Source: Candidatus Saganbacteria bacterium
Lineage (GTDB): Bacteria > Margulisbacteria > WOR-1 > XYC2-FULL-46-14 > WPAF01
DNA: 64,000 nucleotides
Assembly (NCBI GenBank): GCA_016223205.1
Contig: JACRPM010000014.1
Coordinates: 1-64,000, forward strand
Reading direction: 5' to 3'
The notes under the pieces were generated by a model. It was given only the letters and a program-made list of their open reading frames with translations, did not search any database and was not told the origin of the DNA. A program made the position numbers and the translations under genes. Below, one piece after another: positions 1 to 54,973 of the stretch (position 1 is the first letter of the stretch; every line of letters starts with the position of its first letter).

Positions 1-65
1 CCTTCCCTAAGTGCCTCAAGCGCCACCCGGGACTTAAAATCCGCGTCAAATTTCTTGCGCATCAT
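1..65 (-). CDS. IS3-family transposase OrfA, N-terminal fragment
   Basis: Reading leftward from ATG at 65, the translation is MMRKKFDADFKSRVALEALR, which matches the N-terminal helix-turn-helix opening of IS3-family OrfA proteins (the K-x-x-F-K-x-x-V-A-L-E-A-L pattern). A strong ribosome site, AGGAGGG, lies about 7 bases upstream. Only the first 21 or so codons are inside the window; the rest lies to the left. OrfA normally supplies DNA binding and is joined to the OrfB catalytic domain by programmed frameshifting. Family assignment is good despite the short length, because the pattern and the IS-like terminus agree. Confidence 0.75.
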   Translation of the reverse strand, partial: MMRKKFDADFKSRVALEALRE

Positions 66-134
66 AACTGTTCCCTCCTGATTAAAATTGTAGCAGTTTT
101 TACATCTTAACCAGTGGTCCAGTTTTTGGGGTCA
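1..134 (-). mobile_element. End of an IS3-family insertion sequence (cut by window edge)
   Basis: The minus strand starts with TGACCCCAAAAACTGGACCA at 134 and proceeds inward. This is a TG-initiated, AC-rich terminus of the type found at IS3-family inverted repeats. It is followed by a short leader and a ribosome site before an OrfA-like start at 65. The element continues beyond the left edge, so its other end, the target duplication and OrfB are not visible. The boundary at 134 is inferred from the terminal TG/CA and from where 4HB coding similarity resumes. Confidence 0.7.
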
Positions 135-147
135 ATTATATATATTG

Positions 148-471
148 ATGCTGGAAATCCACCAAATATGTCGGACTCTTCCATTAGGCGAACGCTTTAA
201 GTTGAAAGATCAAGCGGAGAGGTCATCGTCCTCTGTGCCAGACAATATTGCGGAAGGGCATACCAGCTATTATTATCAGGATAAGATTAAGGGTTTTAAT
301 GTTGCGAGGAAAGAGGCGGGAGAGACCCAGAATCATATTCGGGCAATGGAAGGGAAAAGATATATAACAAAAGTTAAAGCAGAGGAATTGATGATACGCT
401 ACGAAGAAATTATTCGCGGTATAAATGGGTATATCAATTGGGTGAGGGAGAAACGGGGGTCAAAAAAGTAA
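148..471 (+). CDS. Four-helix bundle protein (S23/IVP family), 5' end cut off by the IS3 element
   Basis: The translation carries the signature of the 23S rRNA intervening-sequence (S23, four-helix bundle) family: ERFKLKDQAERSSSSVPDNIAEG followed by a long amphipathic C-terminal half ending YINWVREKRGSKK. Compared with the second family member at 51342, about 20 N-terminal residues (the K-x-x-x-VWQ-x-A-x-x-L helix) are missing. The frame stays open upstream but changes at the IS boundary at 134, so the true start was separated by the insertion. A TTG at 145 or ATG at 148 could restart a shortened protein; function is doubtful. The stop codon lies at the first unit of an 'atcag' word-repeat array. 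Family function is unknown, though members occur in rRNA intervening sequences. Confidence 0.75.
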   Translation: MLEIHQICRTLPLGERFKLKDQAERSSSSVPDNIAEGHTSYYYQDKIKGFNVARKEAGETQNHIRAMEGKRYITKVKAEELMIRYEEIIRGINGYINWVREKRGSKK

Positions 472-590
472 AAGGATATCAGGGTGTCAGGATATCAGTT
501 AGATGCATATCGGCAACCGGAACATCTGGGCCTGATTCCCTGATTTTCTGATCCTCTTCCCACTGATCCGCTGATATCCTGATCCGCTTT
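472..590. repeat. Word-repeat array with inverted arms ('atcag' family, copy 1)
   Basis: The 3' flank of the 4HB gene repeats words built on GGATATCAG in the first arm (473-499). Their complements (CTGATTCC, CTGATCC, CTGATATCC) fill the second arm (532-587). TCAGGATATCAG at 487-498 is exactly complementary to 571-582, so the transcript can fold into a long degenerate hairpin. Related sequence occurs inside mutL (11002-11080) and comEA (49161-49240). The rest of the gap up to rplU contains only the rplU promoter. Confidence 0.8.
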
Positions 591-3261: not shown

Positions 3262-3352
3262 AGGAAAGAGCACGGAACACGGAGCATAGAGCTTAGAACA
3301 TAGGGAAATTACCCTGTGCTCTGTGTTCGGTGTTCCGTGTTCAGTGTTCTAA
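3262..3352. repeat. Word-repeat hairpin ('gaacac' family)
   Basis: The stretch after proA repeats variants of GAACACGG and GAACATAG on one side (GCACGGAACACGGAGCATAG). The complementary words (CTGTGTTCGGTGTTCCGTGT) lie on the other, meeting at TAGGGAAATTACCCT. The result is a long imperfect inverted repeat of about 90 bases that could act as a terminator for proBA. The remaining bases to 3434 hold nothing I can identify. Confidence 0.75.
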
Positions 3353-45939: not shown

Positions 45940-48114
45940 ATGACTGAACCTCAAGTCTATCGTGAACTGGGACTTACCGACGCCGAATACCAGAGGATAC
46001 TGGGTATTTTGGGCCGGGAGCCGTCGTCAACGGAGCTTGCCATGTTCTCGGTGGAATGGTCGGAGCACTGCGGCTATCCGCGCTCGCGCAAATATCTAAA
46101 ACTTTTCCCCCAAACCGGCAAATATCAAGCTTTAGTGGGCGAGGATGCCGGCGGCATCGTTTACGACGACACCGCTATCATCTTCAAGATGGAATCCCAC
46201 AACCACCCCTCCCAGGTGGAGCCCCGGGAAGGCGCGGCTACCGGCGTTGGCGGCATCATCCGCGATATTTTTACTTCCGGCGCCCGTCCCATCGCCTGCC
46301 TCGATTCCCTGCGCTTCGGCGATATCAGCAATCCCTTCAATAAATTCATCATGAACGGCGTGATCGACGGCATCCAGTTTTACGGCAACTGCGTAGGAGT
46401 GCCCACTGTGGGCGGCGAGATCTATTTCAATAACGCTTATGCCGGCAACTGCCTGGTGAACGTGATGTGCGTGGGGATCTGCAAAAAAGATGAACTGGTC
46501 CGGGCGCGGGCAGAAGGCATTGGCAATTCCATCATCTACGCCGGCTCCCGCACCGGGCGCGACGGCATCGGGGGCTGTTCGGTTCTGGCTTCGGCGGAAT
46601 TCAAGTGCACTGATGAAGAAAAAAGGCCCACGGTGCAGGTGGGCGATCCTTTCACCGAAAAATGCCTGATCGAGGCGACGCTCGAATCGCTCAAGACCGG
46701 CGTGGTCACGGGCATCAAGGATATGGGTGCGGCCGGGCTTACTTGTTCGAGTTCCGAGATGGCGGCGGCGGGCGGGGTGGGGATCGAGTTCGATCTTAAG
46801 GACATCCCGCTTCGGGAAGAGGGCATGGAGCCCTACGAGATCATGATGTCCGAATCGCAGGAAAGGATGCTGCTTTGCGTAAAAGCCGGGCAGGAGAAAA
46901 AGATCATCGATATTTACACCAAATGGGGACTGGAAGCGGTGAAGATCGGCGCCGTCATCGAGGGCGGGCTCATCAAGATCGCGAATAACGGGGAGCCCAT
47001 TTGCGAGGTTCCCGTAAAAGAGCTGGCCAACGCTCCTTTGTATGATCTTCCTTGGGAAGAAAATAGAAAATCGAAAATAGATAATAGAAAATTGGATAAA
47101 CCTAAAGATTTGAATAAGGTTTTATTGAAACTGCTCGCTTCTCCCAACATCGCCAGCAAAAAGGCGGTATTTGAGCAGTACGATCACATGGTGCAAACCA
47201 ATACCTCGGTGTATCCGGGCGGGGACGCCACGGTCTTGCGCATCAAAGGCAAACCCTGGGGATTGGCAGTGACATCCGACTGCAACGGCCGTTATGTCCA
47301 GCTTGATCCCTACTTGGGAGCGCAGATCGCGGTGGTCGAGGCCTGCCGTAATCTGGTGGCCAGCGGAGCCGATCCCGCCGGCGTCACGGATTGTTTGAAC
47401 TTCGGCAATCCCGAAAAGCCCGACCGCTATTTCTATTTCAAACGCGCAGTGGAGGGCATTGCCGACATCTGCCGGCAAATGGAACTGCCGGTGGTCTCCG
47501 GCAATGTTTCTTTCTATAACGAAAGCCCCCAGGGGGCGATCTTTCCCACTCCGACCATAGGCATGGTGGGGATCGTCAAAGACATCAAAAAGCGCTGTTC
47601 GGTCCCCTTTAAGGACCGGGGAGATCTCATTGTCCTGCTGGGAAAGAACAAGGAAGAACTGGGAGGATCGGAATATCTATCCGTCATCCATGGGCAAGAA
47701 GCCGGCTCTCCTCCGGAATTGGACCTGGAACTTGAAAAGAGAGTACAGTCGGTGTGCCTTACCGCTATCGAAGTGGGGATCGTCAAATCCGCGCACGATC
47801 TTTCTGAAGGCGGATTGGCGGCGGCGCTGGCGGAATGCGCCATTTTAGGAAAAATGGGCGCCTCGATCCGCTTGAAGGATACGTTTCGCGAGGATGCCCT
47901 GCTTTTCGGCGAATCACAATCGCGCATAATCTTGACCATTGCTCCCCAGGATATCTTTGCCCTAACCGACATTGCTATGCTTTTTGCCCTGCCATTTGAG
48001 ATAATCGGGAAGGTGGGCGGCAAAAAGCTCGCTGTTGAAGGGCCAAAAAAGAAATTGCTGGATCTGCCGGTCGCCAAACTTGCGGATGCATATTTTAGCG
48101 CATTGAGGAGATGA
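45940..48114 (+). CDS. purL: Phosphoribosylformylglycinamidine synthase II
   Basis: PurL makes FGAM in purine synthesis, using ammonia delivered by PurQ with PurS. The 724 residues are the small, separate-subunit form. MESHNHPSQVEPREGAATGV near residue 84 binds ATP/Mg, and GGCSVLASAEF and AAGLTCSSSEMAAAGGVG mark the first AIRS-like half; the second half starts near residue 385 with DHMVQTNTSVYPGGDATVLR. Residues 373-386 (EENRKSKIDNRKLD) between the halves are coded by a word repeat. PurQ and PurS are not in the window. Confidence 0.96.
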   Translation: MTEPQVYRELGLTDAEYQRILGILGREPSSTELAMFSVEWSEHCGYPRSRKYLKLFPQTGKYQALVGEDAGGIVYDDTAIIFKMESHNHPSQVEPREGAATGVGGIIRDIFTSGARPIACLDSLRFGDISNPFNKFIMNGVIDGIQFYGNCVGVPTVGGEIYFNNAYAGNCLVNVMCVGICKKDELVRARAEGIGNSIIYAGSRTGRDGIGGCSVLASAEFKCTDEEKRPTVQVGDPFTEKCLIEATLESLKTGVVTGIKDMGAAGLTCSSSEMAAAGGVGIEFDLKDIPLREEGMEPYEIMMSESQERMLLCVKAGQEKKIIDIYTKWGLEAVKIGAVIEGGLIKIANNGEPICEVPVKELANAPLYDLPWEENRKSKIDNRKLDKPKDLNKVLLKLLASPNIASKKAVFEQYDHMVQTNTSVYPGGDATVLRIKGKPWGLAVTSDCNGRYVQLDPYLGAQIAVVEACRNLVASGADPAGVTDCLNFGNPEKPDRYFYFKRAVEGIADICRQMELPVVSGNVSFYNESPQGAIFPTPTIGMVGIVKDIKKRCSVPFKDRGDLIVLLGKNKEELGGSEYLSVIHGQEAGSPPELDLELEKRVQSVCLTAIEVGIVKSAHDLSEGGLAAALAECAILGKMGASIRLKDTFREDALLFGESQSRIILTIAPQDIFALTDIAMLFALPFEIIGKVGGKKLAVEGPKKKLLDLPVAKLADAYFSALRR
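47057..47100 (+). repeat. In-frame word repeat in the PurL linker ('aaaatag' family)
   Basis: AGAAAATAG, AAAATCG, AAAATAG, ATAATAG and AAAATTGG follow each other between the two halves of purL. The same words occur in coaE at 57185-57230, where they again encode an ENRK-x-KI peptide. Confidence 0.78.
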
Positions 48115-49416: not shown

Positions 49417-51266
49417 TATTCAAGCGCCCGATCGTAGCGATCGCGCTGTTTTATGCATTAGTCGTCATTCTCCTGCGTCCTCTTCTTCCTTTGCCTGCCG
49501 AAATTAAACCCCACGAACAGGAACCTTTCCCCTTGAATGTCCGTTTTATGGAAGTCATACAAAAAACCACCCCGGCTCCTTATGACGCCCTGCTGGGCAG
49601 TATCGTTTTTGGCACCTCGGTCTCGCCGCTCGATCCCGACCTCAAGGATAGCTATAAGAAAGTCGGGCTGGCCCATCTTCTGGTGGCTTCGGGGACGCAG
49701 GTTTCCATCTTGATCGGGGTGTGCCTGATGATCATTCGAACTTTCAAGCTGCCGATAGGATTGGGGGTGGTTGCGGCCTCAATGATAAACGTTTTGTTCG
49801 CTGTCATGACCGGCCTGGGGCCTTCTATTTTACGTGCGGCCATGATGGGGGAGATCACCCTTTTTGGAATATGGTTAAATCGGGAAGGCGAGATCTATAA
49901 TTCACTGGGGTTGGCCGCATTGATACTGATGATCTTTGATCCTCTGGTGATCTTCGGTTTAAGCTTCCAGCTTACCTTTGCCGCCACCTGGGCGCTGGTC
50001 TATCTGGCGCCGGTTTTAGAGAAGAAGTATCGATTGCCTTCGCCCCTGGCTATTTCTCTGGCCCCGATCCTGGCTACCATTCCCATAACGCTTTATAACT
50101 TCAACCAATTCTCCGTGGCGGCCCTTTTGGTCAATGTGATAGTTATGCCCTGGGTGGAGATCTTGACGGTTTTGGGGTTTGCCTCGACGGTGCTGGGTGC
50201 GGTTTTTCTTCCCATCGCCGCCGTCTTGAACGGGACGCTTCTGCTGATACTTAAGCTCTTTAACGAAATAGTGTATACTTTTTCGGCGATACCCGGCGCT
50301 TGCCTGTATTTTCCCGCGCCGCCGTTTTTTTTCATCCTGGCGTATTACGCCGGATTGGTCATGTGGGTCGAAGGATTTATGAATAAAAGAAATCTATTAA
50401 AATATTCCCTGCTATGTCTGGCGCTGTTCATCTGGGCGGCGGCTTTCTCGCCTTCGGTCGCCATCAAGGGGCTCACGATCTCGGTAATAGATGTGGGGCA
50501 GGGGGATTCCATTCTGGTCGAGAGCCCATCCGGCAAGACCATGCTCATCGACGGCGGACCGAAATACAAGCGGGGCGATGCGGGACGCCGCTTTGTTCTG
50601 CCGTTCCTGCATAAAAAGGGAATTAACAAGCTCGACCTCGTGGTCTTGACCCATCCGCATGACGACCATGTAGGCGGATTACCTTCGGTACTAAAAGACC
50701 TGCCGGTCGGCCTAATATTTGATTCCGGCCAACCCCACACCAGCCGTGCCTATCTGGATTTTATCAATTTGGTAGCCCAGAAAAAGATCGCTTATAAGGT
50801 GGCCCGGGCGGGACAGATGATCGATCTGGGCGGAGGAGTGAAAGGAGAGATATTGAATCCGCAGGAGCCGTTCATCGAGGAATCGGCGCTGAATAATAAT
50901 TCGGTCGTTATCAGATTGGTTTTCGGCAAGATAGCGATTATGCTGACCGGTGATATGGAAAAGGAAGGGGAACAAAGGGTTTTGGCCATGGGATATGAAT
51001 TAAGATCCCAGATCCTGAAAGCCGGGCATCATGGCAGTCGGACCTCGAGTTCACTTGAGTTTCTCGAAGCCGTCCAGCCCGAAGCCGCCTTGATCTCGGT
51101 TGGGGTGAAAAACAGTTACCATCATCCCCATCCTTCCACTTTGAAGAAGTTTGAGGAGATGGGGATAAGAGTTTATCGGACCGATCTTGACGGTAATCTT
51201 TCGGTCTCAACCGATGGGGAGAAGTACATAATCTCTCAAGGCTACAAAGGCAAACAGGGCAGATAA
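49413..51266 (+). CDS. comEC: ComEC/Rec2 competence membrane protein
   Basis: ComEC is the inner-membrane channel for transforming DNA. About ten membrane helices occupy residues 1-350; the competence signature includes LLVASGTQVSILIGV near 90. The C-terminal metallo-beta-lactamase-like domain has LVVLTHPHDDHVGGLP near residue 410 and AGHHGSRTSSSLEFLEAV near 535. The final residues SQGYKGKQGR come from the 74-bp repeat that borders the next gene. At 617 residues it is shorter than the B. subtilis protein (776) and lacks the first OB-like domain. GTG start overlaps the comEA stop. Confidence 0.93.
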   Translation: MIFKRPIVAIALFYALVVILLRPLLPLPAEIKPHEQEPFPLNVRFMEVIQKTTPAPYDALLGSIVFGTSVSPLDPDLKDSYKKVGLAHLLVASGTQVSILIGVCLMIIRTFKLPIGLGVVAASMINVLFAVMTGLGPSILRAAMMGEITLFGIWLNREGEIYNSLGLAALILMIFDPLVIFGLSFQLTFAATWALVYLAPVLEKKYRLPSPLAISLAPILATIPITLYNFNQFSVAALLVNVIVMPWVEILTVLGFASTVLGAVFLPIAAVLNGTLLLILKLFNEIVYTFSAIPGACLYFPAPPFFFILAYYAGLVMWVEGFMNKRNLLKYSLLCLALFIWAAAFSPSVAIKGLTISVIDVGQGDSILVESPSGKTMLIDGGPKYKRGDAGRRFVLPFLHKKGINKLDLVVLTHPHDDHVGGLPSVLKDLPVGLIFDSGQPHTSRAYLDFINLVAQKKIAYKVARAGQMIDLGGGVKGEILNPQEPFIEESALNNNSVVIRLVFGKIAIMLTGDMEKEGEQRVLAMGYELRSQILKAGHHGSRTSSSLEFLEAVQPEAALISVGVKNSYHHPHPSTLKKFEEMGIRVYRTDLDGNLSVSTDGEKYIISQGYKGKQGR

Positions 51267-51313
51267 GGCTAGAAGGGCAACAGGGGGAAAGGGCTAAAAA
51301 GGGGACAAGGCAA
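51240..51313 (+). repeat. 74-bp direct repeat, left copy, flanking the 4HB gene
   Basis: A run of GGC-CAA-AGG words (GGCTACAAAGGCAAACAGGG ... AAGGGGACAAGGCAA) covers the comEC stop and leads to the 4HB gene. It matches 51722-51795 at 71 of 74 positions. The reverse complement, degenerate, is at 51850-51937. Confidence 0.88.
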
Positions 51314-51341
51314 AATGGGTATCTGGAAAGGAGGAATTAAG

Positions 51342-51779
51342 ATGGAGGAAAAACTTTACGGACATAAAAAAATGATCGTCTGGCAGATGGCGGATAAACT
51401 TGATGTTATGATCCAAAAAGTATGGGAAAAGATTCCAAGGACAGAATATAAGTTGCGCGAACAGCTCGATTCGGCAACAGATTCGGTTGGGTCAAATTTT
51501 GTGGAGGGATATTATTCTAATTCTCTCAACGAGTATATTAGGTTTTTGAGGTACAGCAAGCGGTCGCTGGGTGAGGTTCAGCAGAGGATGAGAAGGATTT
51601 TGAGAAAAAGGTATATTACTGAAAGCGAGTATAAAGAAGTTGATAGTAATGCCGGGCGAACGATGTATCTTTTTGATAGATTGATCGAAGCGCTTGAGCG
51701 CAAGCGGGCCAATATCGAAATGGCTACAAAGGCAAACAGGGCAGATAGGGCTAGAGGGGCGACAGGGGGAAAGGGCTAA
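51342..51779 (+). CDS. Four-helix bundle protein (S23/IVP family), complete copy
   Basis: A full-length member of the S23/IVP four-helix bundle family, 145 residues. It opens MEEKLYGHKKMIVWQMADKL, where the VWQ-x-A-x-x-L helix is diagnostic, then REQLDSATDSVGSNFVEGYY, the conserved helix 2 block, and RFLRYSKRSLGEVQQRMRRI. Helix 4 contains MYLFDRLIEALERKR. The last 19 residues (MATKANRADRARGATGGKG) are encoded by the right copy of the flanking direct repeat. GGAGGA lies six bases before ATG 51342. Such proteins are known from 23S rRNA intervening sequences and resemble the Avd accessory proteins of diversity-generating retroelements; no reverse transcriptase is nearby. Confidence 0.9.
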   Translation: MEEKLYGHKKMIVWQMADKLDVMIQKVWEKIPRTEYKLREQLDSATDSVGSNFVEGYYSNSLNEYIRFLRYSKRSLGEVQQRMRRILRKRYITESEYKEVDSNAGRTMYLFDRLIEALERKRANIEMATKANRADRARGATGGKG

Positions 51780-51795
51780 AAAGGGGACAAGGCAA
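51722..51795 (+). repeat. 74-bp direct repeat, right copy
   Basis: Same words and order as 51240-51313 with three differences. It overlaps the 3' end of the 4HB reading frame, supplies its stop codon, and continues with more of the same words (CAACAGGGCAACAAAGGC) to about 51812. Confidence 0.88.
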
Positions 51796-51849
51796 CAGGG
51801 CAACAAAGGCACACAAATGAATCCCATGATAGCCTTTTCGTCCCATTAG

Positions 51850-51937
51850 ACCTGTTGCCCTTTCGCCTTGCTAGCCCTGCTTGCCTTGAATGCCTTTGTA
51901 GCCTTGTTTGCCTTGTATGCCCTTATAGCCTTGAAAA
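51850..51937 (-). repeat. Inverted, degenerate arm of the same word repeat
   Basis: Words CCTGTTGCCC, TTTCGCCTTG, CTAGCCCTG, TTGCCTTG, AATGCC, TTTGTAGCC run from 51850 to 51937. They are reverse complements of the words in 51722-51812, so the 4HB gene's downstream flank can fold into a long imperfect hairpin. There is no other gene between 51780 and 51942. Confidence 0.8.
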
Positions 51938-51942
51938 GAGGA

Positions 51943-53952
51943 TCATCTCGACTCAAAAGTTGGCACGCCGGTGATGCTCAATGGGGGAGGAACGACTTCG
52001 GGCGGGATCTTGCCCAGGTTCCAGAAATCATCCACTTTTCTCTGGATAGAGGGAACGCGATAGAGGACTTCTGCGGCTTCGGCCCGGGTAAAGGGCCGGT
52101 TGGGCTCAAAATCCTTACCTTCGAGGTATTTCAGCATGCCGATCTTTTTGGCGGAGCTGATGTGCTTATTTGCCCAGAAGTCGGGTTTAAGATCGGGGAA
52201 GGACACGCCGGGTTCTTCCACCAGATTAGCGAAGCGCGCCAAAACCGTGATGCCTTCGGCCCGCGACAGGGTCTTGTTGGGTTTAAAGGTCTTATCCGGA
52301 TAACCTTCAACCAATCCCAAGTCCACGCCCATGTTGACGAAAGGCCGGTACCACTGGTTCGGCTTGATGTCGGTGAATTTGTTCTCCTGCTCGGTAATGG
52401 CCCAGCGGGAAGGATCGATGGTCGAGGTCCTGACCAACACCGCGGTCAGCTCCGCGCGGGTTATGCCTTTATCCGGCCGGAAGGTCATGTCCGGATAGCC
52501 CTTGATGAGACCCAATGTCGAGGAGAGATAGATCGGGTCCGCGGCCCAATATTCGAGCGTGGCATCAACATAGGGAGTAACTCTCAATATCCGGGCTTCT
52601 GCCGTAATATTGATATATTCCGGCGTGGCCAGGCCGGTGACCCGGATAACGTTACGGCCGATATTAAGGTCGGCCAGGGTCTCAACCGAACCGGCCGCGG
52701 TCTTAACCGGATATCCTCCCACCCGAACGTCGATCAGGTTAGCTAGTTTTGAGATCTCACGCACTTCTTGGGTGGCCGAAAGTATCGGCACCGTCCAGAC
52801 GGTCTTCTGATCATAAACTTCGCTGTAGCGGGCGGTAAAGACCAGCGGCAGGGAACGGCTTTCGGTTATGGTGCGGTCTTTAGGTGAAATGAATTTGATG
52901 GCCGAGATCTTACTCTTGGGCTTTAAAAAAGTTTCCAGCACGCGATCTCCCACGTATGACATCGAGAAATAGTGGGGCGAATCTCCCGCTATAGCGGGAC
53001 GCGGGGCGTAGGCATAATCAAAACGGAAAGCGGTGTTCTTGAATCCCACCCCGAAGGTTAGTCCGGTGCCGCCTTGCTCCTGATTTAAACCGGTCCTCAA
53101 TATAATATCCCGGATGGGGGTCCACTCCAAGCCCAGATGGAAGAGGGTGCTGGATTGCAAGACGTTGCGCGGGATATCCAAATCCAGAGAGGCCACCAGG
53201 GGTGAGGAATATTTGTAGAGAGCTTCGGCGGTGGAACCTAGAACATTTACCGCCACACCCAGTTTGTTGAAGCCGCCCAGCTTTTCCGTTGCATTGTTCC
53301 AATTTAAGCTGCCGCCCAGGATATTCTGCAGATTGCCCGCTACGGTCAGGTAGTGCAGGGGCCGGTATTGGGCCGAGAGGTCCAAGCTCATGCCGGTGCC
53401 GCGGGCCAGCTCGCCTCCACCCACGATCGATTGATTGAAGAACTTAAGATTTCCCCCGATCGATATCTTCTGCCAGGGCAATTCGCGGGCGTAAGTTATC
53501 AGGAGGACGCTGTTCTCGTAGCCGACAGCTTCCAAACTGGGATTGACTATTATTCGGCTGGTGCCCGGGTCGCGGGTGGTGGGGTAGGAGCCGCCCACCG
53601 CGGCGCCGGTGTATCCCAGGCCGAAAGTTCCCCAGGGGGTGGGGAAAGCAACGCTTAAAAGCGAATAAGTGGTTTCTTCAAGAAAAAGTTTACGGGAAAG
53701 AACGGTGGCGGTGGGGAAATTGAGCTTGCTTAATCCCGCGGGATTGAGGAACAGGCCTTCGCCGTCATTTATCAATGCCATCCCGGCTCCGCCCATACCC
53801 AGCGTGCGGCCGGCATAAATGGTTCTACTGGGATCTATTGTTGTTCCGGTGTCTGCCTGTGCGGCAAATCCCAAGCACCAAGCACCAAATAACAAACAAA
53901 TTCCAATTATCAATTTGGTTTTGGCGCTTTGATATTGTTTGATATTTGTCAT
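51943..53952 (-). CDS. Porin-like beta-barrel protein with three C-terminal SLH domains
   Basis: The 669-residue exported protein has the signal peptide LIIGICLLFGAWCLGFAAQA. Residues 40-350 resemble the PorV/OmpP1-like barrel (RTLGMGGAGMALINDGEGLFLNPAGLSKL; repeated beta-hairpins with aromatic ends). After an Ig-like segment (~350-450) come three SLH domains: GLIKGYPDMTFRPDKGITRAELTA near 490, GLVEGYPDKTFKPNKTLSRAEG near 560 and GMLKYLEGKDFEPNRPFTRAEAAE near 620. In diderms, SLH domains bind peptidoglycan-linked polymers, here on the periplasmic side, so this protein could tether the outer membrane. The signal peptide region is encoded by a word repeat. Last gene of a minus-strand operon. 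Confidence 0.85.
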   Translation of the reverse strand: MTNIKQYQSAKTKLIIGICLLFGAWCLGFAAQADTGTTIDPSRTIYAGRTLGMGGAGMALINDGEGLFLNPAGLSKLNFPTATVLSRKLFLEETTYSLLSVAFPTPWGTFGLGYTGAAVGGSYPTTRDPGTSRIIVNPSLEAVGYENSVLLITYARELPWQKISIGGNLKFFNQSIVGGGELARGTGMSLDLSAQYRPLHYLTVAGNLQNILGGSLNWNNATEKLGGFNKLGVAVNVLGSTAEALYKYSSPLVASLDLDIPRNVLQSSTLFHLGLEWTPIRDIILRTGLNQEQGGTGLTFGVGFKNTAFRFDYAYAPRPAIAGDSPHYFSMSYVGDRVLETFLKPKSKISAIKFISPKDRTITESRSLPLVFTARYSEVYDQKTVWTVPILSATQEVREISKLANLIDVRVGGYPVKTAAGSVETLADLNIGRNVIRVTGLATPEYINITAEARILRVTPYVDATLEYWAADPIYLSSTLGLIKGYPDMTFRPDKGITRAELTAVLVRTSTIDPSRWAITEQENKFTDIKPNQWYRPFVNMGVDLGLVEGYPDKTFKPNKTLSRAEGITVLARFANLVEEPGVSFPDLKPDFWANKHISSAKKIGMLKYLEGKDFEPNRPFTRAEAAEVLYRVPSIQRKVDDFWNLGKIPPEVVPPPLSITGVPTFESR

Positions 53953-53966
53953 TTGATATTTGTCAT
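53865..53966 (-). repeat. Word repeat encoding the signal peptide of the SLH porin
   Basis: In coding orientation the first ~100 bases read as words: ATGACAAATATCAA (repeated with 14-base spacing across the start), AATTGATAATTGG, AATTTGTTTG, TTATTTGG, TGCTTGG and GGGATTTG. A second ATG in the repeat upstream opens a 5-codon frame. The words also occur, in another mix, in the signal peptide at 54911-54973. Confidence 0.7.
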
Positions 53967-54973
53967 TTCTTAAGAACTGTCAGTTTTCCTCTGCCTATCA
54001 GCCGTCCGTCAGCGATTATGAGATAAATGTAGATGCCGTTGCCCACCATGTCTCCCGAATCGGACCGTCCGTTCCAGGTGACCTCGTTGTAGCCCACGCG
54101 GCCGCCGTTGGCATTGGCAAAATAGGTCTGCTTGACCAATTGATTTCCCATCAGGTCATGGATGGTAAGGTTGATATTGCCGGCCTTGGAAAGAGTGTAG
54201 GCGATGCTGGTCGAGCCGGTTTCGGGATTGAAAGGATTGGGGAAATTGAGCGCCAGGCCCTGGACCGAGATTTCCACCGCGGATTGCACGATCAGGTTGT
54301 TGGCTTCGAGCGAGCTGACCGAGCCATTGCTGTCCACCGCCTCGTATACTATCTTATGCAATCCGTCGCTAAGCTGGGGGCTTAAAAAGGCGTAAGTGAT
54401 CTTGGCGTTGTCCGGATTGATGCCGGTGAGCGTCTGGCGGGCGCCGCCGTCGAGGGTGTAGTAAAGGGTGGCGAGAGAGCGGGTGGGGGCCACGATAACC
54501 GTTACTTCAAATGATGGGGCAGCCAGGATCGTATCGCCGTTGACCGCCGTCCGGCCGTTGATGTTCAGCCCCATCTCGGGACGATCGCCGATAATATAAA
54601 CACTATATGAGGTAAAAGTTGTATTGATGTTCCCGGCGGCGTCGGTGGCGCGGACCTCGAACAGGTGCGATGCGGTATCGCGGTCGAGCGCGGTCGATTC
54701 AAAAGTAAAAGTGGCGGTCTTCCTGTCGGCCGAAAAGCCGGAAAGGATGGCTGTCGCGAATGCGCCGCCGTCCACCCGCCATTCCACCCGGCTGATCTCG
54801 GACTCGGTATCGGTCGCTTCGCCGCTAATTATCGGCTGATTGTTGGTCGAGATGTCGAACGCCAAGTGGTTGAAAGTGCAGGTGGGAGCTGTTGTGTCCG
54901 CCTGCGCTGCAAACCCTAAGAAACAAACACTAAACCCTAAACAAATCCCAAATACTAATTTACCAATTTTCAC
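53963..54973 (-). CDS. Exported Ig-like protein with C-terminal FlgD-like sorting domain
   Basis: A 336-residue protein: signal peptide GKLVFGICLGFSVCFLGFAAQA, then Ig-like modules (CTFNHLAFDISTNNQPIISG; EVRATDAAGNINTTFTSYSV; FEVTVIVAPTRSLATLYYTL). The C-terminal ~90 residues hold LNFPNPFNPETGSTSIAYTL and IHDLMGNQLVKQTYF, the PNPFNP/FlgD-like fold also present at the end of the S8 protease. That tail may mark proteins for a type IX-like or other surface secretion route, though this is not proved. It is the middle gene of the minus-strand envelope operon, overlapping the SLH porin's leader. Confidence 0.78.
   Translation of the reverse strand: MKIGKLVFGICLGFSVCFLGFAAQADTTAPTCTFNHLAFDISTNNQPIISGEATDTESEISRVEWRVDGGAFATAILSGFSADRKTATFTFESTALDRDTASHLFEVRATDAAGNINTTFTSYSVYIIGDRPEMGLNINGRTAVNGDTILAAPSFEVTVIVAPTRSLATLYYTLDGGARQTLTGINPDNAKITYAFLSPQLSDGLHKIVYEAVDSNGSVSSLEANNLIVQSAVEISVQGLALNFPNPFNPETGSTSIAYTLSKAGNINLTIHDLMGNQLVKQTYFANANGGRVGYNEVTWNGRSDSGDMVGNGIYIYLIIADGRLIGRGKLTVLKK
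54911..54973 (-). repeat. Word repeat encoding a signal peptide
   Basis: In coding orientation the first codons repeat TTAGTATTTGGGATTTGTTT, then TTAGGGTTTAGTG, TTTGTTT and TTAGGGTTTG. These give the hydrophobic LVFGICLGFSVCFLGF. The adjacent GFAAQADT is shared with the porin next door. Confidence 0.65.

Follow-up and report, generated by a model that had tools for sequence, protein, structure and literature searches.

Short repeats scattered through bacterial genomes include the short tandemly repeated repetitive (STRR) sequences of cyanobacteria, which are intergenic heptanucleotide repeats, and the Rickettsia palindromic elements, which are tolerated in frame within coding sequence. Closer to the subject of this study are the intervening sequences (IVSs) of 23S rRNA in Leptospira and Coxiella, which have complementary ends and an S23 open reading frame (ORF), occur sporadically and are suspected of mobility (PMC4990558). 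In the REPIN-RAYT system, dispersed hairpins go with a gene that has the same repeats on its flanks, each such gene having its own repeat type (PMC3116915). TAACTGA heptads of Beggiatoaceae and cyanobacteria are found between genes, near starts and sometimes in gene ends, and a mobile repeat-binding protein has been guessed for them (PMC4679880). Genes for four-helix-bundle (4HB) proteins of the S23/IVP type have been reported in rRNA insertions of Candidate Phyla Radiation bacteria and in cas loci, with no mention of word arrays in the accessible parts of those reports. Here we describe a unit, the target, at positions 51236-51942 of a window of 64,000 nucleotides (contig JACRPM010000014.1, labelled C13, of the Candidatus Saganbacteria assembly GCA_016223205.1, labelled G000), in which a 4HB gene, the sole recognised gene inside the unit, is accompanied by arrays of short variable words. 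Judged from its sequence, the unit is probably (a probability of roughly 0.7) a member of a widespread family of ~0.5-0.7 kb elements that are mobile or were so until recently and are composed of an array, a 4HB/S23 gene and a reverse-complement array, with the gene driving hairpin remnants. No description of 4HB genes together with word repeats was found in the open-access literature.

Anatomy of the unit and the comEC junction

The unit is located between comEC and a convergent gene for an SLH-domain protein. Its features are as follows.

51236..51942, + strand: whole inserted unit, from comEC to the convergent SLH-domain gene; the junction is empty in G001, G002 and several same-order genomes
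51237..51318, + strand: left word array A, GGC-based, with ~9-nt words, overwriting the last codons and stop of comEC; comEC homologues end without the array
51342..51779, + strand: 4HB (S23/IVP) gene, PF05635/TIGR02436, 145 aa; its last ~19 codons run through the right array
51722..51818, + strand: right word array A, matching the left copy at 71/74 positions
51832..51937, - strand: inverted word array A', predicted to form an RNA panhandle with the left array and a hairpin with the right array

The 4HB ORF ends at 51779 and starts at 51342 or at an upstream ATG at 51315. In profile searches it passes the curated cut-offs of both PF05635 (71.9 bits vs 33.8, E 6e-20) and TIGR02436 (63.3 bits vs 24). 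Its relatives in the PDB are 2rld and 2gsc (Xcc0516), the latter a pentamer (PMC4990558).

Direct comparison of 51240-51313 with 51722-51795 finds 71 of 74 positions identical, and this direct pair is extendable to 79 bp at 94% identity. comEC takes its C-terminal codons and its stop from the left copy (QGYKGKQGR*); the ~19 C-terminal codons of the 4HB protein come from the right copy. Two alignments of the inverted arms were obtained, one between 51237-51311 and 51832-51906 (72% complementary over 75 nt) and one between 51236-51279 and 51891-51934 (82% over 44 nt); the arrangement of the target is A-gene-A-A'. In the predicted fold of the transcript, the left array is paired with the right inverted array and the ORF stays in the loop, with a minimum free energy of -240.7 vs -189.8 for shuffles (z=-7.7). 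A preliminary description of this DNA had already reported the two 74-bp copies and the coding ends that they form, and both observations are borne out; the RNA of the repeat pair, which it had pointed to, is predicted to fold into the panhandle just given. The inverted arm that it placed behind the gene is real and spans ~51832-51937. Its picture of a gene framed by direct 74-bp copies, on the other hand, describes a sub-arrangement, A-gene-A-A', of a general plan with inverted arms.

In the same-family genomes G001 and G002, as in several genomes of the same order, hardly any sequence separates the end of comEC from the convergent SLH gene, whereas in G000 the two genes are ~700 bp apart, with the unit in between, and array sequence stands in for the last comEC codons. 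Since the syntenic junction is empty in the relatives, including both same-family genomes, the unit at 51236-51942 is an insertion in this lineage. It is noted that the left array overwrites comEC codons, so the ends of the insertion and any duplication are not fixable from the comEC comparison.

Word arrays, private vocabularies and gene-free hairpins

To score arrays, repeated 6-mers on both strands were compared with dinucleotide shuffles, with flanks taken from the domain edges; an earlier metric based on ORF ends and 7-mer coverage was dropped as too weak, because arrays often run into ORF ends. Controls were drawn from sampled stretches and searches, and the association p-values are nominal, the elements being related by descent. 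For 58 4HB genes of G000 and its relatives the median z is 5.8, compared with 1.06 for 522 other genes from the sampled stretches, and 35 of the 58 lie above the 95th percentile of the controls (Mann-Whitney p=8e-23). Named genomes (80 loci, >15 phyla) gave p=2.6e-12 for 77 4HB genes against 206 same-locus controls. A periodic array is present in a flank of 81% of elements vs 14-29% of controls, with a period of 7 in 92 of the 177 periodic flanks, 8 in 39 and 14 in 21, and arrays are visible by eye at the 20 further Bacteroidota 4HB copies inspected. The usual order is upstream stop codon, purine-rich array, 4HB gene, reverse-complement array and start of the next gene; purines make up over half of the sequence in 73 of 90 upstream arrays. 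The same kind of flanks is seen at a relative's locus, L013, and at a Margulisiibacteriota locus, L105. Direct copies are also present in some elements, as A-gene-A-A' in L020 and the target and as hairpins or longer repeats on either side of the gene in L001, L011 and L019. Between co-directional genes, 4HB genes at the 68 named loci considered are in the same sense 53 times and never antisense, compared with 110 and 15 for control genes (Fisher p=0.004).

Up to 15 4HB copies occur per 1.5-Mb genome. One kind of 4HB gene adjoins tRNA genes or sits between them across genera (L025, L026, L028, L032, L033, L037, L043, L048, L068). At L028:1447-2441, two oppositely oriented 4HB genes flank a tRNA-Val gene and a word hairpin.

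In G000 itself (1.57 Mb, 16 contigs), the flanks of the six PF05635 genes were read, and word arrays flank all six, several of them being hairpins in their own right. The words differ per element:

Target: GGC words
C5: TAGAAAA
C11 (77182): GAACACA/GGAACTT
C4: TCGATGC/TCGAAGC; the lowest-scoring element of the genome, z 1.3
C14 (52865): AACAAAC/ATCAAAC

A BLAST search of these six arrays against the whole of G000 returned gene-free copies, here called solos, for most word dialects. Those with target words include C5:36019-36185, C1:44838-45007 and C14:24977-25074. Array matches number 44 in G000, against 0-4 in most of 19 relatives and 12 in one. Across 11 genomes, array words are 15.6-fold commoner per Mb in their own genome than in other genomes, a figure that includes matches of the C4 element which probably stem from an unrelated palindrome. 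Intergenic solos are hairpins; a few copies occur within coding linkers, where they form single direct arrays in frame. The solos C5:36019 and C1:44838 align along their length with the A-A' part of the target, inverted array A' included; recombination between the two copies of A would leave just this part.

A scan for periodic hairpins returned 24, each >1 kb from any 4HB gene, from 1104 kb of 4HB genomes and a single one from 694 kb of four genomes without 4HB genes (p=8e-5). Ancestry confounds this comparison, as most of the 4HB-free genomes are more remote relatives. In 119 pairs of 4HB proteins that are at least 60% identical and have unrelated neighbours, the arrays have a mean of 4.04 repeated 6-mers in common vs 2.34 in permutations matched by GC and group (p=5e-4); examples, from four genomes, are L025, L026, L048 and L068, each of which lies near tRNA genes and has GTTAGTTGT-type words. 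In more than one genome, several hairpins contain or lie close to a perfect palindrome around CTGCCTGCCGGCAGGCAG (L002 ~1328-1352, L005 ~1902-1922, L050 near 8881), which seems to be a separate repeat.

One site, lying between a MoxR gene and the gene downstream of it, was compared in 30 Chryseobacterium species. Eleven apparently intact elements share one dialect (TAGGTRRCAG), and several decayed or shortened 4HB genes as well as empty sites were found. Three gene-free hairpins carry the same words and several hairpins carry other words. Among ten of the intact 4HB genes the median ratio of nonsynonymous to synonymous substitution rates (dN/dS) is 0.088, indicating purifying selection. These states suggest that solo hairpins can be left after gene loss, a direction that we infer from the compared sequences.

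The window holds further features of the same kinds.

127..590, + strand: second 4HB element (C13:127), gene 145-471, right word hairpin 470-587, GGATATCAG words
3265..3350, no strand assigned: gene-free solo hairpin with GAACACA words of the C11:77182 element
47058..47096, + strand: lone in-frame array of TAGAAAA-type words (ENRKSKIDNRKLD) in the purL linker
53866..53985, no strand assigned: solo hairpin with words resembling those of the C14:52865 element (CAAATAACAAACAAA); array found by the detector, word match by eye

The left arm of the element at 127..590 is out of view at the contig edge. The contig starts in or at this 4HB element (window 1-127), which suggests that such repeats may break assemblies. 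The preliminary description had noted repeats at the 3' end of both 4HB genes of the window and had thought this unlikely by chance; repeats are seen at both genes (at the second as the hairpin 470-587), and it is the control-gene comparisons given above that exclude chance. The variable linker of PurL has word-like peptides that differ by genome, ENRKSKIDNRKL here, KVQSANIKVQSIK in G005 and SEIRSSKFEVK in G013 (L185, L190, L193), and that are of similar length, as if words had been rewritten in place. As an extra insertion the purL array is not clean, since the linkers of relatives are equally long and several have word-like peptides of their own; the array is an occupancy of a variable linker, and no more is claimed for it.

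Proposed mechanism and alternative explanations

In the mechanism that we propose, the 4HB protein, whose relatives are pentameric bundles, would recognise the words of its own element, be it on the folded transcript or on single-stranded DNA, and would promote the copying of words, with host enzymes, into new, mostly intergenic, co-directional sites. At transcribed positions the panhandle may be tolerated and processed as a 23S rRNA IVS is. Recombination between the direct copies in A-gene-A-A' would drop the gene and leave a solo A-A' hairpin. The gene would then be the driver and the hairpins non-autonomous remnants or copies, following the RAYT/REPIN logic with an unrelated protein. Much of this had been anticipated in the preliminary description, which regarded gene plus repeats as a mobile or self-expanding unit. 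The empty site, the association, the solos and the Chryseobacterium states all support that view, with movement itself being what we infer. The tie between 4HB genes elsewhere and word arrays, on which it had staked its case, holds both in the relatives and in the named genomes, and the gene-free A-A' remnant predicted from recombination was found as solo hairpins.

Several points weigh against the proposal. Neither movement nor a target-site duplication or excision product was seen. We know of no nuclease or transposase activity for the 4HB fold. Arrays are weak at some elements, for example L016 and L021, and the presence/absence pattern in Chryseobacterium also fits vertical loss. To these is added the ancestry that confounds the hairpin counts. 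In cyanobacteria, a 4HB gene was found within 1.5 kb of TAACTGA arrays in 0 of 30 loci (L333-L362), so that heptad arrays can also occur where no 4HB gene adjoins them.

The best placed of the alternatives, although unlikely, is that word hairpins come first, through replication slippage and template switching, and that 4HB genes land in or beside them as preferred targets. The gene-free solos, among them those at the one Chryseobacterium site whose words are different, and the cyanobacterial heptad arrays just mentioned would follow naturally, and A-gene-A-A' could be a gene inserted in A-A' with A duplicated. It is harder to reconcile with the rarity of word hairpins in 4HB-free genomes. Moreover, the same words accompany related 4HB proteins that occupy unrelated sites in different genomes, and the words are common to both arms yet differ between elements of one genome.

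The purifying selection, the strict co-orientation with the host operon, the strong panhandle fold and the locations by tRNA genes and inside operons could instead point to a resident regulatory or RNA-processing gene, whose arms are a selected RNA regulatory or RNase III structure and whose apparent mobility is ordinary gain and loss. We consider this quite doubtful in view of the up to 15 copies with differing words in a 1.5-Mb genome, of the sporadic occupancy, pseudogenes and empty sites, and of the insertion into the comEC end together with dispersed solos that include arrays in coding linkers.

It is improbable that a reverse transcriptase copies the elements in trans, with the 4HB protein as its partner in the manner of Avd in diversity-generating retroelements (DGRs). 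The 4HB fold is homologous to that of DGR Avd (PMC10053308), and G000 does have one reverse transcriptase frame of 343 aa. However, RVT_1 matches are lacking in 14 of 20 genomes, among them G005 with its 11 4HB genes; there is no reverse transcriptase at the 4HB loci of G000, and its sole RVT_1 match, at C4:169857, lies at a distance from all of them. As a general mover, a reverse transcriptase is unlikely, being absent from most 4HB genomes. The single gene in G000 (C4:169857-170438) has, with its 343-aa open frame, the size of a DGR reverse transcriptase. It is highly improbable that a RAYT (Y1 transposase) moves the hairpins as REPINs, despite the same overall logic of dispersed hairpins and one gene with the same repeats at its sides, as G000, whose hairpins carry the words of its own 4HB elements, has 0 Y1_Tnp (PF01797) matches in an assembly ~92% complete. 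Unless a Y1 gene is hidden in unassembled sequence, a RAYT is rejected as the mover in this genome.

Beyond a family of mobile or recently mobile elements, a wider proposal can be put forward tentatively, with the odds slightly against it. 4HB/S23 proteins may drive an unrecognised class of mobile elements in many phyla, in which each lineage has its own 7-9-nt vocabulary and copying proceeds, probably, via a folded RNA or single-stranded intermediate without a classical transposase; the class would explain part of the scattered heptad repeats and would include the 23S rRNA IVS as a specialised branch. Many genomes contain genes annotated only as "four helix bundle protein" and scattered heptad repeats of obscure origin, and tying both together makes each testable. 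If the proposal is true, word-specific binding, 4HB-dependent movement of hairpins and a step via RNA or a single strand in which no known transposase takes part are predicted, and the 23S rRNA IVSs, long suspected to be mobile, would fall into a larger family.

Comparison with known systems

With insertion sequences and miniature inverted-repeat transposable elements, the present elements share the presence/absence at syntenic sites, as seen at comEC and in Chryseobacterium. Like the Rickettsia palindromic elements, they show that short repeats are tolerated in frame in genes; the in-gene copies here differ in being single direct arrays in variable linkers, and a candidate driver gene is present. 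The TAACTGA arrays are near-uniform and have no gene assigned, in contrast to the word arrays with their 4HB gene, and a link to these published repeats finds no support in the 0/30 cyanobacterial loci with a 4HB gene within 1.5 kb. In some cyanobacterial genomes TAACTGA arrays reach very high numbers, with up to 401 overlapping matches, and in others it is the reversed word that is plentiful. Regarding DGRs, the likeness to Avd noted in the preliminary description stands as a family resemblance, a homologous four-helix-bundle fold, and goes no further; many 4HB-rich genomes are without any RVT_1.

The closest likenesses are to the IVS and to REPIN-RAYT. The IVS has the same protein family, complementary ends that pair into a stem with a sense ORF in its loop, and a sporadic spread. 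The present elements are different in that they are intergenic or in operons, their arms consist of variable words private to the element, and each genome has many copies together with gene-free hairpins. The target is not in an rRNA gene, being located between comEC and the SLH gene with no rRNA match, and an Rfam search gave no match above gathering scores. As in REPIN-RAYT, dispersed hairpins of the same type as those by the gene were found in G000; the differences are a 4HB protein in place of a Y1 (HUH) transposase and arrays of variable 7-9-nt words in place of a conserved 20-40-nt palindrome. The present elements work like REPIN-RAYT and the IVS, and belong to neither. Gene-linked dispersed hairpins and S23-ORF insertions are known kinds; what is apparently new is their combination with private word vocabularies and an unrelated protein.
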